NCBI RefSeq assembly: GCF_016921195.1
Contig: NZ_JAFGYF010000003.1
Coordinates: forward strand, 310,001-374,000
Origin: Cellulosimicrobium cellulans
Lineage (GTDB): Bacteria; Actinomycetota; Actinomycetes; Actinomycetales; Cellulomonadaceae
DNA: 64,000 nucleotides
Direction of reading: 5' to 3'
Under the pieces are notes generated by a model that was not told the origin of the DNA, did not search any database, and was given only the letters and a program-made list of their open reading frames with translations. Of the stretch, positions 56,119-60,621 are shown in pieces; within the stretch, counting starts at the first letter, position 1, and each line of letters opens with the position of its first letter. The translations under genes and the position numbers were made by a program.

Positions 56119-57240
56119 GTGCAGCGACGACGCGTGCTGCGACCCGAGGCACCGCTGCTGCGGCGCGCACCGGGCGAGGTGCAGGTCGGCACCGACCCGC
56201 GCTGGTCGGTCCGGCTCACCGGGCTCGAGCCCGCCGAGGAGGAGTGGCTGCGCGCGCTCGCCGCGCCGTCGGCCCGACGCGAGACGGGCGTCGAGACCGG
56301 GACGCCGTCGCCCGGTCGCCGGGCCGCGCTCGTCCAGCTCCTCGAGGAGGCGCATCTCCTCGTGCCCGCCCGCCGACGACGGCCGGTCTCACCCGCTCCG
56401 GGCCACGGCGAGGCGGACGTGGGCGTGCTCTCGGCACTGCGGCCCGACGGCGCCGGGCACCGCGTGCTCTCGACGCGCGCCCGGGCGACCGTCGCCGTCG
56501 TCGGTCTGGGGCGGGTCGGGGCCTCGCTCGCCGTGCACCTCGCGACGGCCGGCGTGGGCACCGTCGTCCTGGAGGACCCTGGCACGGTCCTCACCACGGA
56601 CGTCGGGGTGGGCGCGTACCGGCTGCGCGACGTCGGGACGCCCCGCGAGGCCGCGGTCCGACGGCTCGTCGAGGAGGTCGCACCCGGTGTGGTCGTCACC
56701 GCGAGCGCAGATGCGCGCCGGTCGACCGACGTCGTCGCGGCGGCGGAGCGACCGGGCCTGCTGCCGGACGTCGTGGTCCTGGTCGAGCACGGCGCGGCGG
56801 ACCCGGAACGGGTCGGGAGGATCGTGGGAGAGGGAGTGGCGCACCTGTCGGTCGTGGTGCGCGAGGCCGACGTCGTCGTCGGACCGTTCGTCCGGCCGGG
56901 CCTCGACCCGTGCCTGACGTGCGTGGACCTGCACCGCGCCGACGCCGACCCGTGCTGGCCTCAGCTCGCAAGGCAGCTGCGCGCCCGTGCCGTGCGCACG
57001 GCCGAGGAGTCGTCGCTCGCGGCGTCGGCAGCCGCGATCGCGCTCGGTCAGGTCCTCGCGGCCCTGGACGGGCTGGTGCCCCGCGCAGCCACGGCCTGCA
57101 TCGAGATTCCTGCTCCCGATGCGGTGCCGCGGCTGCGCGAGACCGGCCGCCACCCGCGCTGCGGGTGCGACGAGCTGGCGCGCACGCCCCCGGACGGGGC
57201 GCTGCTCACCATGTCAGGCCGCCGTCGAGGCGCCGACTGA
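56119..57240 (+). CDS. ThiF/E1-like protein with zinc-type cysteine pairs
   Basis: A 373-residue protein. Residues 1-120 form an RRE-like or winged N-terminal part; from 121 an E1/ThiF-type Rossmann domain (RATVAVVGLGRVGASLAVHL, TVVLEDPGTVLTTDVGVGAY, AAERPGLLPDVVVLVEHGAA). Cysteines in RPGLDPCLTCVDLHRADADP and in HPRCGCDELAR resemble the structural zinc site of E1 enzymes. It most resembles the cyclodehydratase-type ThiF proteins of TOMM clusters but has no YcaO partner here. GTG 56119 has GGAGG at 5 nt. The 3' end overlaps whiB7 by 27 bp, tail to tail. Confidence 0.7.
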   Translation: MQRRRVLRPEAPLLRRAPGEVQVGTDPRWSVRLTGLEPAEEEWLRALAAPSARRETGVETGTPSPGRRAALVQLLEEAHLLVPARRRRPVSPAPGHGEADVGVLSALRPDGAGHRVLSTRARATVAVVGLGRVGASLAVHLATAGVGTVVLEDPGTVLTTDVGVGAYRLRDVGTPREAAVRRLVEEVAPGVVVTASADARRSTDVVAAAERPGLLPDVVVLVEHGAADPERVGRIVGEGVAHLSVVVREADVVVGPFVRPGLDPCLTCVDLHRADADPCWPQLARQLRARAVRTAEESSLAASAAAIALGQVLAALDGLVPRAATACIEIPAPDAVPRLRETGRHPRCGCDELARTPPDGALLTMSGRRRGAD

Positions 57241-57651
57241 CGCCCCTGCCTCGACGCGCACGGCCTCCTGCGCCTGGCGCTCGGCCTCGCGGGCGAGCAC
57301 CTCGGCCTTGCTCGGACGGCCGCGGCCACGCTTGCGCGCGACGACGACGCCGTCCACGAAGACCTCGCCACCCCAGACACCCCAGGGCTCGCGGCGCTCG
57401 ATCGCGCCGGCGAGGCAGCCCTCGACGAGGGGGCACGTGCGGCACAGGGCCTTGGCCTCCTCGACCTCGGCGGACCGCTCGGCGAACCAGAGCTCCGGGT
57501 CGTTGGTGCGGCAGGGCAGCAGACCCGCGAGGAGACGGTCGAACTCTGCGGAGTCCTTCTCGCCGAGGGGCGTGGCCAGCGGTTGGTGGGGGACCCAGGG
57601 GCCGGATCCGCCCTGGGCAGTGATGTTGTCGAGCAGCGCGGTGAGCCGCAC
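57214..57651 (-). CDS. whiB7: WhiB7-type redox-sensing regulator with AT-hook
   Basis: A 145-residue WhiB protein. The four [4Fe-4S] cysteines are in GLLPCRTNDPELWF, EAKALCRTCPLVEGCLAGAI; the turn motif is EPWGVWGGEV. The basic RKRGRGRPSK after it is an AT-hook, which marks WhiB7 among WhiB proteins. WhiB7 binds sigma-A and activates intrinsic antibiotic-resistance genes. Start GTG 57651 is chosen because GGAGG stands at 5-nt spacing. The place next to uvrD2 is the same as in mycobacteria. A 450-nt leader upstream has an ORF and hairpins (separate entries). Confidence 0.87.
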   Translation of the reverse strand: MRLTALLDNITAQGGSGPWVPHQPLATPLGEKDSAEFDRLLAGLLPCRTNDPELWFAERSAEVEEAKALCRTCPLVEGCLAGAIERREPWGVWGGEVFVDGVVVARKRGRGRPSKAEVLAREAERQAQEAVRVEAGASVGASTAA

Positions 57652-57774
57652 GATGTCCTCCAGTGATGTCCTGTCGTGGGTGTGAACGTCGTCGTCACAA
57701 GACCCCGAGGACGACGGTCCCCGTCCTGGGAGAGACGGGAGAGACCGGTGATCCTCATCGGCAGACGTGCTCTG

Positions 57775-57816
57775 GAGAACACGAAGGCCACGGGTCCGAG
57801 ACGGACTCCGCGGCCT
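57775..57816 (-). terminator. putative attenuator hairpin in the whiB7 leader
   Basis: AGGCC (57785-57789) pairs with GGCCT (57812-57816), continuing through CGG/CCG and TCCG/CGGA to an AGA loop, about 12 bp in total with small bulges. On the minus strand it is followed by TTCGTGTTCT (57784-57775), a U-containing tail rare in this GC-rich DNA. It comes 7 nt after the uORF-stop hairpin, so the two could compete. Confidence 0.55.
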
Positions 57817-57832
57817 GGAAGGTTCTGGTCGG

Positions 57833-57988
57833 TCAGACCAGACGTGTCCTGGAGGCGGAGTCGGGAGCGGGGCGGGTGACGAAGGTGCCGCCGCGGTGCG
57901 CGGTTGCACGCGGACGGAGTCCTCCTGGCGTGCCCGTGCAGACGGACGCGTTATCCAGCAGGTTCGCCATGGCGATCTGGTTCTTCAT
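57833..57988 (-). CDS. possible whiB7 leader peptide (uORF)
   Basis: A 51-codon ORF, MKNQIAMANLLDNASVCTGT onward, starting at ATG 57988; a longer in-frame start is ATG 58063. The 3' half is basic and Thr/Arg/Pro-rich and has no similarity I recognise. Its stop codon lies in the loop of a perfect 7-bp stem (TCTGGTC/GACCAGA, 57824-57842). Position and structure suggest a sensor uORF whose translation controls read-through into whiB7, rather than a functional protein. Confidence 0.45.
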   Translation of the reverse strand: MKNQIAMANLLDNASVCTGTPGGLRPRATAHRGGTFVTRPAPDSASRTRLV

Positions 57989-58154
57989 CAGCTTTCCCAC
58001 CCCCTCTCTCCGTTCGAGGCCCGCCTCCCGGCGCGCCCCTCTCCAACAGGACTCGTCGACCATATGACGCGCGTCGTGGGACGCACAACTTATTTACGGG
58101 AGTTTCTTCGACGAGTTTCTCCGACGCTCCTCGGAGCCCGAGAACGGCTCCGCT

Positions 58155-60209
58155 CTACCGCTCCGCGCGGCTCACGATGTCCAGGATCGTCGCGCCGTAC
58201 CGTTCGATCTTGGCGGGCCCGAGCCCGTTGATGCGGGCGAGCGCCGCCGTGCTGGTGGGCCGCGTCTCCGCGATCGCCGCGAGCGTCGTGTCGACCAGCA
58301 CGGTGAACGCGGGCTTGTCCGTCTCCTGCGCGACCTGGCTGCGCCACTCGCGCAGGTTCTCGAACAGCTCGCGGTCGTACTCCCCCGTGAGCCGCAGCTT
58401 CGCCTGCCCGGCGCGCGGCCGGCGCGTGCCGTGCGCGCCCGGCTCGTCCGGCCACAGGCCGTCGAGGAAGCGCGTGCGGCGCCGCGTCGCGCGACCGCCC
58501 GGGTTCCTCGACCTGGCGAAGGACAGCTCGAGGTGCTCGCGGGCACGGGTGATGCCCACGTACAGCAACCGCCGCTCCTCCGCGACGGCCTCGTCCGTCT
58601 CCGCGAGGGAGATCGGCATGAGGCCCTCGCTCATGCCGGCGAGGAACACCGCGTCCCACTCGAGACCCTTGGCGGCGTGGAGCGACGCGAGCGTCACCCC
58701 CTCCACGGTCGGCGCGTGCTGCGCGGCGGCGCGCTCGTCGAGCTCGGCGACGAACGTCGCGACCGTCGGGGCGGGGCCCTCAGTCGCCTGCGCGAGCGCC
58801 GCGACGTCGTCCGCGAGCGCGACGAGCGCCTGCGTGGACTCCCAGCGCTCACGGGCCGCGCCGCGCGCGGCGGGCGGCTCGGGGGCCCACCCGGCGGCGG
58901 CGAGGACGTCGCGCACCGTCTCCGGCATCGCGACGTCGGGGTCGGCCGACCGGGCGGCGCCCCGCAGGAGCACGATCGCGTCGCGCACCTCCTTGCGCTG
59001 GAAGAAGCGCTCGCCGCCTCGGACGAGGTAGCCGATGCCCGCGTCGGCGAGCGCCGACTCGAACGCCTCCGACTGCGCGTTGGTCCGGTACAGGACCGCG
59101 ATCTCGCTCGCGCGCGTCCCCGCCGCGAGGAGCCGCGAGATCCGCTGGGCGATGCCGGTGGCCTCCGCCTCGTCGTCGTCGTACGCGGTGAACGCGACCG
59201 GCGGACCGGCGGGCCGCTGGGCGACGAGCTCGAGCGCCTGGTGCGCACCGCCCGCACGCCCGGCGCGCGCGAGGAGCTGGTTCGCGAGGTTCACGACCTG
59301 CGGCGTCGAGCGGTAGTCGCGCACGAGCCGGATGACCTGCGCGCCGGGGTGGGTGCGCGAGAACGTGAGGAGGTGGTGGGGCGTCGCGCCCGTGAACGAG
59401 TAGATCGTCTGCGACGGGTCGCCGACGACGCACAGCTCGTCGCGCCCCCCGAGCCACTGGTCGAGGACGAACTGCTGGAGCGGCGAGACGTCCTGGTACT
59501 CGTCGACGACGAAGTGGCGGTACTGGCGTCGCACCTCGTCCGCGACCCCGCCCTGCGTCGCGAGCATGTCGCCGAGCATGAGGAGCACGTCCTCGAAGTC
59601 GATGACCGACCGCTCGGTCTTGACGTCCTCGTACGCGGTGATGAGGCGTGCGACGGTCTGGTGGTCGTACCCGGCGGGCGGCTCGCGGTCGATCGCCTCG
59701 CACGCCCGGACGTAGTCGTCCGCGGTGACGAGCGAGACCTTGGCCCACTCGACCTCGGACGACAGGTCGCGCACGGCGACGCGGTCGACACCGACGCCGA
59801 GGCGGCGCGCCGACTCGGCGATCACCGGGGCCTTGTGCTCGAGGATGCGCGGCGGCGCACCCCCGACGACCTTGGGCCAGAAGTACCCGAGCTGCCGCAG
59901 CGCCGCGGCGTGGAACGTGCGGGCCTGCACACCCGTCGCGCCGAGCTCGCGCAGGCGCGTGCGCATCTCGCCCGCCGCGCGCGCGGTGAAGGTCACGGCG
60001 AGGACGCTCGTCGGGACGTACACGCCGGTGCGGACGCCGTAGGCGATGCGGTGCGTGATCGCGCGCGTCTTGCCCGTCCCGGCACCGGCGAGCACGCACA
60101 CCGGACCGCGCAGCGCGACGGCGACGTCGCGCTGGTCGGGGTCGAGCGCGTCGAGGATCTCGTCGGCGGTGCGCAGGGACGGCGGGCGTGAGACCGGTGG
60201 CGTGGACAT
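58155..60209 (-). CDS. uvrD2: ATP-dependent DNA helicase UvrD2 with HRDC domain
   Basis: A 684-residue SF1A helicase. Motifs: DPDQRDVAVALRGPVCVLAG, AGTGKTRAITHRIA (Walker A), VLAVTFTARAAGEMRTRL (Ia), FVVDEYQDVSPLQQFVLDQW (II), VVGDPSQTIYSFTGATP (III), RLVRDYRSTPQVVNLAN (IV), SLHAAKGLEWDAVFLAGMSE (V) and YVGITRAREHLELSFA (VI). The C-terminal end (about 605-684) is an HRDC domain, as in mycobacterial UvrD2; the tetracysteine linker of that enzyme is not seen. ATG 60209. Upstream of whiB7. Confidence 0.93.
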   Translation of the reverse strand: MSTPPVSRPPSLRTADEILDALDPDQRDVAVALRGPVCVLAGAGTGKTRAITHRIAYGVRTGVYVPTSVLAVTFTARAAGEMRTRLRELGATGVQARTFHAAALRQLGYFWPKVVGGAPPRILEHKAPVIAESARRLGVGVDRVAVRDLSSEVEWAKVSLVTADDYVRACEAIDREPPAGYDHQTVARLITAYEDVKTERSVIDFEDVLLMLGDMLATQGGVADEVRRQYRHFVVDEYQDVSPLQQFVLDQWLGGRDELCVVGDPSQTIYSFTGATPHHLLTFSRTHPGAQVIRLVRDYRSTPQVVNLANQLLARAGRAGGAHQALELVAQRPAGPPVAFTAYDDDEAEATGIAQRISRLLAAGTRASEIAVLYRTNAQSEAFESALADAGIGYLVRGGERFFQRKEVRDAIVLLRGAARSADPDVAMPETVRDVLAAAGWAPEPPAARGAARERWESTQALVALADDVAALAQATEGPAPTVATFVAELDERAAAQHAPTVEGVTLASLHAAKGLEWDAVFLAGMSEGLMPISLAETDEAVAEERRLLYVGITRAREHLELSFARSRNPGGRATRRRTRFLDGLWPDEPGAHGTRRPRAGQAKLRLTGEYDRELFENLREWRSQVAQETDKPAFTVLVDTTLAAIAETRPTSTAALARINGLGPAKIERYGATILDIVSRAER

Positions 60210-60354
60210 CACCCGGGATTCTCGCAGGCGCCGGTGACACGCGGGTGCCGGCCGGCTCGATCGGGGAGGGAACAGCGCGCGGTCCCCCGGTGTTACCGTC
60301 ACGACCGACCGCCCGCGGCACGCGCCGCCCGGAACCGCACCAGGAGAGCCCTCG

Positions 60355-60621
60355 ATGAGCACCGCCCCGACCCTTCCCGACGCCGGCTCGATCGTCATGT
60401 ACTCGACGACCTGGTGCGGGTACTGCCGCCGCCTCAAGACGCAGCTCGACTCCGAGGGCATCGGCTACACCGAGGTGAACATCGAGGAGACCCCGGGGAC
60501 CGCGGAGTTCGTGGAGTCGGTCAACGACGGCAACCGGACCGTGCCGACCGTCGTCTTCCCCGACGGCTCCGCCGCCACCAACCCGTCGCTCGCCGAGGTG
60601 AAGCAGCGCCTCGCCGCCTGA
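60355..60621 (+). CDS. mrx1: mycoredoxin-1 (glutaredoxin-like)
   Basis: An 88-residue thioredoxin-fold protein with STTWCGYCRRLKTQLDSEGI (CGYC), VNIEETPGTAEFVESVNDGN, RTVPTVVFPDGSAATNPS (cis-Pro and binding loop). It is close to M. tuberculosis Rv3198A, which reduces mycothiol mixed disulfides. ATG 60355 follows GGAG; a TTACCG -10-like box is at about 60294. Lies between uvrD2 and nudC exactly as in mycobacteria. Confidence 0.93.
   Translation: MSTAPTLPDAGSIVMYSTTWCGYCRRLKTQLDSEGIGYTEVNIEETPGTAEFVESVNDGNRTVPTVVFPDGSAATNPSLAEVKQRLAA

Follow-up and report, generated by a model that had tools for sequence, protein, structure and literature searches.

The gap between uvrD2 and whiB7 on the minus strand of the 64,000 nt stretch of Cellulosimicrobium cellulans DNA analysed here (the window) raises the question of how transcription into whiB7 is controlled. 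Lee, Lee and Roe reportedly described, in 2022, an attenuator of whiB7/wblC that depends on an upstream open reading frame (uORF). The same architecture of uORF, terminator and antiterminator is described for actinobacterial whiB7 in the available part of PMC10727445, and excerpts of PMC11550727, PMC9618640, PMC13393426 and PMC4128351 give the same account or part of it. An earlier note had proposed a uORF-dependent attenuator for the present gene, and this is the best explanation of the leader, given the covariation of both terminator and antiterminator and the position before WhiB7-type genes. The probability that the leader senses translation and attenuates transcription in the manner of the whiB7/wblC systems is put at about 0.9. 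The window would then be a new, well-supported example of the published switch, its function in Cellulosimicrobium being judged by comparison. Literature searches returned nothing on whiB7 in Cellulosimicrobium or on a whiB7 uORF in Cellulomonas; the gain is modest, because the main mechanism has already been published.

The features of the locus are given in Table 1. A WhiB domain is encoded directly downstream of the leader, and the protein is nearest to those of Cellulosimicrobium (95–96% identity among the named loci, the best 80 of 511 relatives). It has no NCBIfam match in the profile search, and carries the sequence RGRGRPSK, which we take to be an AT-hook-like motif. Read along the minus strand, the gap contains a candidate WhiB7/WblC-type promoter, a uORF, a hairpin over the uORF stop codon and a terminator with an interrupted T tail. 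All of the elements listed in the earlier note were located, including the AT-rich patch (58097–58089), the ORF, the stop hairpin and the GC-rich hairpin, while the antiterminator strand A was absent from it. A small divergent glutaredoxin-like ORF (60355–60621, PF00462) adjoins uvrD2.

Table 1. Features of the uvrD2–whiB7 region (positions in the window).
Feature	Position	Strand	Details
uvrD2	58155..60461	-	UvrD-type helicase with HRDC domain; upstream gene; longest ORF, true start may be further in
Candidate promoter	58059..58097	-	box GTAAAT 58097-58092, 3 nt, -35 TTGTGC 58088-58083, 18 nt, -10 TATGGT 58064-58059
uORF	57833..57988	-	51 codons, ATG to TGA; weak Shine–Dalgarno (SD) sequence GGGGGTG at 58004-57998
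Strand A, antiterminator 5' half	57855..57862	-	GACTCCGC; inside uORF codons; exact complement of strand B
Stop-codon hairpin	57824..57842	-	TCTGGTC-TGACC-GACCAGA; 7 bp, TGA in loop
Terminator hairpin B:C	57786..57815	-	GGCCGCGGAGTCC-GTCTC-GGACCCGTGGCC; 12 pairs (one of them G-U) and a single bulged A
Strand B	57804..57811	-	GCGGAGTC; in terminator 5' arm; common to A:B and B:C
Interrupted T tail	57776..57785	-	TTCGTGTTCT; directly after terminator hairpin
whiB7	57214..57651	-	GTG start at 57651; 145 aa; Pfam PF02467 Whib, E 2.1e-15

Comparison was made across 167 leaders, consisting of the window, 29 loci from the family search, 80 named loci and 57 of 60 further family loci; the other three (L191, L194, L195) were left out as no whiB7 start motif was found in them. 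The N-terminal motif was lacking in 63 of the 167, which were cut by match position. The family set comprises 87 leaders drawn from the 221 family genomes that gave a WhiB-family match, paralogues counted, and the named set consists of the 80 best of 511 relatives. A number of species are present in both sets, and counts of distinct leaders are given where these were made. Two MAGs (L071, L076), Sanguibacter (L079) and further named members of the family are part of alignment A1 and of model R1.

The rule for WblC promoters given in the available part of PMC7157823 is a GAAAWY box 3 nt before the -35 hexamer, an optimal spacer of 17–18, and a start 7–8 bp after the -10. The candidate promoter matches five of the six box letters and agrees in both spacings, and transcription is expected to start at about 58052. 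A loose form of the pattern occurs in 86 of 154 distinct leaders compared with 0.05 in shuffled sequences, although counts against shuffles, here and below, are not independent trials because the leaders are related. The candidate promoter also bears on the reading of the uORF. A 76-codon version beginning at an earlier ATG had been offered as an alternative and its frame is indeed open, but the ATG at 58063 lies within the -10 hexamer, which would place the longer ORF outside the transcript, and this version was rejected. The ATG of the 51-codon frame is taken as the start.

In the window, the uORF ends shortly before the terminator, the stem of which starts 20 nt past the beginning of the stop codon. 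In 128 of 154 distinct leaders, versus 5.8 (range 3–11) in shuffles, a start codon whose SD match is at least 5 opens a frame of 35–115 codons that ends directly before the terminator. The window itself falls below this SD cut-off, with an exact match of 4 bases; within its genus three leaders pass and most do not. The peptide has no Pfam or NCBIfam match. Among 16 leaders of the genus, the variable columns are distributed over the three codon positions as 23/24/23, showing no bias, and 32 codon columns vary with a change of amino acid compared with seven that vary only synonymously. The frame is kept, without clear selection on the peptide, which offers no independent proof of translation. 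The peptide does differ from lineage to lineage, as had been claimed, but its conservation is weak even inside the genus, which suggests a general sensor of ribosome progress. Drug-binding arrest peptides are known from erm leaders, and the uORF might likewise specify one that binds certain drugs, with the RNA strands merely reporting the arrest. The peptide start, MKNQIAMANLLD, is alike in many of the 16 leaders from the genus, which favours this reading, yet the peptides diverge widely among genera, dN/dS values relative to the window range from 0.38 to 2.15 where defined, and whiB7 uORFs are reported, in the portion of PMC12121999 available, to respond to many drug classes as well as to amino acid starvation. 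That such a peptide is the main sensor is quite unlikely, and this reading was set aside; the data suggest a general translation sensor instead.

The terminator is the most constant part of the leader. A scan without any sequence consensus, which asked for a stable hairpin and then four or more T in 11, found the core GGCC[GA][CT]GG in 165 of the 167 leaders (it found none in L080 and L082), and the terminator is present in all 87 family leaders, representing 17 genera. The core GGCCGCGGA...CCGCGGCC is also found upstream of whiB7/wblC in Streptomyces, Pseudonocardia and one Geodermatophilaceae genome, with a variant in Nocardia, which rules out a lineage-specific terminator; the suggestion that this lineage would have different stems is therefore wrong as regards the terminator. 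In the window, the GC-rich hairpin is followed by a T-rich tail that is interrupted, and a simple terminator scanner reported no site there, probably because of the bulge. Both of these points would suit a leader in which Rho, or initiation of whiB7 translation, exerts the main control in place of an intrinsic terminator. Such control is very unlikely, however, given that the stem is nearly invariant and shows compensatory changes, that whiB7 starts as far as 133 nt past the hairpin, and that the hairpins of relatives are also followed by interrupted tails. An intrinsic terminator remains the preferred reading.

An antiterminator made from overlapping uORF and terminator sequences is present in the window. 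Strand A within the uORF can pair with strand B, which also forms the terminator with strand C, and the two pairings are mutually exclusive. The A:B complement of the window has P = 0.03 compared with dinucleotide shuffles, and by the same measure 55 of 88 leaders on the family side, and 35 of 40 others, have a helix with P ≤ 0.05. An A helix with seven or more pairs occurs in 78 of 87 family leaders and 50 of 53 from Streptomyces. No A helix of 7 pairs was found 30–70 nt upstream of the terminator in the leaders from Pseudonocardia (3/3), Pseudonocardiaceae (1/1), Nocardia (1/1), Geodermatophilaceae (1/1), Sanguibacter (1/1) and an Actinomycetales MAG (1/1).

The earlier note had asked for covariation in relatives, and the outcome was favourable both for the terminator and for the newly found antiterminator. 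In the alignment of 82 distinct family leaders, 92.2% of A:B cells are paired (91.5% when shuffled), and this falls to 29–49% when the partner is slid by 1–3 columns. Three of the eight A:B pairs have changed on both sides, a number reached by 9 of 500 shuffles, and six cells have done so compared with a shuffled mean of 1.1 (0/500 shuffles reach six). For B:C the corresponding values are 96.9% of cells (96.5% shuffled), 2 of 13 pairs changed on both sides (18/500) and five cells (0/500). All three strands have changed together in four of the 82 rows, with A/B/C reading GACTCCAC / GTGGAGTC / CCACGGCC in L187–L189, which belong to one genus, and GACTCCGT / ACGGAGTC / CCGTGGCC in L198. In L181 and L182 one A:B pair has gone from A-U to G-C with loss of the end pair, while in a single row (L171) B and C are changed but A is not. 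The letters of Streptomyces (A, TTCCG[TC]GG; B, CCGCGGAA) differ from those of the family and still pair. Of the 82 family rows, 62 carry GACTCC at the corresponding alignment position and 20 lack it there. Three of the rows without it (L173, L175, L178) carry CGGACTCC about 11 nt nearer the terminator, where it pairs with GGAGTCCG. Some Cellulomonas-like leaders (these three and also L077 and L200) appear to have moved the antiterminator strand by about 11 nt towards the stop codon, a switch of register in which CGGACTCC or GGACTCC pairs with GGAGTCC(G).

Folding of the growing transcript of the window predicts a probability of 0.90–1.00 for A:B at the eight ends from 57804 to 57789, with all four 5' ends used, and of 0.72–1.00 for the terminator once the end reaches 57780. 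Among 122 distinct leaders that were chosen for having strand A, 119 reach an A:B probability of at least 0.5 before the C arm is made. In a simple footprint model, a ribosome on codons 1–36 (seven positions) leaves A free (0.93–0.98), one on codons 40–48 (five positions) blocks it, and one on the stop codon leaves it uncovered, with P(A:B) of 0.94. The off state would have to depend on ribosomes passing through, or on one sitting inside the A–B loop. With all 13 ribosome positions, the complete terminator wins at equilibrium (0.99–1.00 at end 57780), so that antitermination would have to be kinetic. An 8 bp long-range helix between the tail CGTGTTCT (57783–57776) and AGGACACG (57851–57844), the latter just before the stop hairpin, also appears in equilibrium folds but was rejected, its upstream strand changing in relatives.

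The equilibrium result would also be expected if only the terminator were functional, as a fixed device for thinning transcripts, with the uORF and the A:B complement incidental. The rows that lack GACTCC at the aligned place, and uORF substitutions without codon-position bias, point the same way. It is nonetheless the least probable of the alternatives, and highly improbable in itself: A:B covaries well beyond the shuffled mean, the Streptomyces strands keep pairing with other letters, uORFs are in large excess over shuffles, and the published whiB7/wblC systems require the uORF, according to the parts of PMC11550727 and PMC10727445 that were available.

The hairpin over the stop codon is the least documented feature of the leader. 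The passages of the whiB7 uORF literature that were available contain no description of it, and it may have been published elsewhere. Taken alone, the hairpin of the window is not significant (P = 0.095 against shuffles). The 165 leaders give 127 distinct pre-terminator segments, of which 63 outperform 95% of their shuffles in folding and 29 outperform 99%. A test by genus label, using the 128 leaders with an SD match of at least 5 and leaving the window out, gave a median case with P ≤ 0.05 in 20 and P ≤ 0.1 in 26 of 31 labels, several of which are probably the same genus twice; for the 15 unnamed family genera only, the corresponding numbers are 9 and 14. The stop lies within a hairpin in 124 of 127 cases, a count that has no control and was not used. 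The sequence of the hairpin differs widely between genera, which argues that it is kept as a structure. In the window, A:B alone has an energy of -12.3 kcal/mol, the stop hairpin alone -10.5 and the two together -26.1, a cooperative gain of about 3.3 kcal/mol; the terminator plus the stop hairpin comes to -34.3 kcal/mol. The hairpin could be a third, separately selected part of the attenuator, a clip that shortens the A–B loop and is opened by the terminating ribosome, the switch then reading completion of translation and not the identity of the peptide. This role is possible but still rather doubtful.

Translation of the uORF, termination, the drug response, kinetic trapping, feedback and the part played by the stop hairpin are carried over from the published systems, and the leader would work as follows. 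Transcription would begin just past a WhiB7-responsive promoter. During normal translation of the uORF, ribosomes would cross strand A, reach the stop codon, open the stop hairpin and keep A off B, leaving B to pair with C; the terminator would form and whiB7 would not be made. If ribosomes stalled early or failed to load, as with ribosome-targeting drugs or a shortage of charged tRNA, A would be bare and the stop hairpin would form. Bare A would then pair with B ahead of the synthesis of C, and polymerase would continue into whiB7, the product of which would feed back on its own promoter.

The leader agrees with the whiB7/wblC attenuator of Streptomyces and mycobacteria, as far as the available passages describe it, in having whiB7 downstream, a long leader, a uORF, a rho-independent terminator and an antiterminator derived from the uORF and terminator, and it shares the terminator core with Streptomyces. 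It differs in having another peptide and another stop-hairpin sequence and, compared with Streptomyces, a uORF of 51 instead of about 100–110 codons and GACTCCGC in place of TTCCG[TC]GG as strand A. In the uORF attenuators of ARE-ABCF genes (are5sc, tiaA and others), drug-inhibited translation of the uORF similarly favours the antiterminator over the terminator, but the uORFs are very short, stalling is at the start codon and the ABCF gene is itself controlled (PMC12421871, available part). Amino acid attenuators such as ilvB1 of M. tuberculosis also have exclusive terminator and antiterminator structures with a uORF ribosome deciding between them, but are described in the accessible portion of PMC13236596 as using sense codons for one amino acid group, and the uORF of the window shows no run of this kind. 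The comparative RNA evidence places Cellulosimicrobium and its family within a widespread whiB7 drug-response switch, and provides strand-level predictions for A, B, C and the stop hairpin.

A covariance model of the terminator region, built from 53 leaders with Streptomyces left out, detects the element at E ≤ 0.01 in 131 of the 197 genomes sampled from the class (65 of 91 genera), the genome of the window included. The searched Rfam release, by contrast, matches nothing in this leader: release 15 at the gathering score gave a single match for the whole window, a tRNA elsewhere, and a search of 57600–58150 gave four matches, all at chance level (E 4.8–9.9). In the genome of the window there is one strong match (E 7.7e-19, a training sequence) and the next has E 0.52 (150 of 9021 candidates scored). 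All 29 of the best loci besides the window lie upstream of a WhiB7-type gene, 25 by a centred check and four shortened loci without centring. Among 18 regions around weaker and comparison matches, six precede a WhiB7-type gene (five of these being the best match of their genome), and the remaining 12 precede no such gene and resemble unrelated terminators. In five regions (L235, L236, L237, L239 and L240, from G257, G294, G398, G379 and G326, respectively) a GGCCCCGGGTCC...GGACCCGGGGCC terminator lies 22–86 nt before an ORF with a resemblance to putative DAHP synthase genes. This terminator could belong to a further leader attenuator, and in four of the five regions it follows a conserved GAGGACCGATCGCCTCCA-GCGCTGCGCTGACAGCC stretch.
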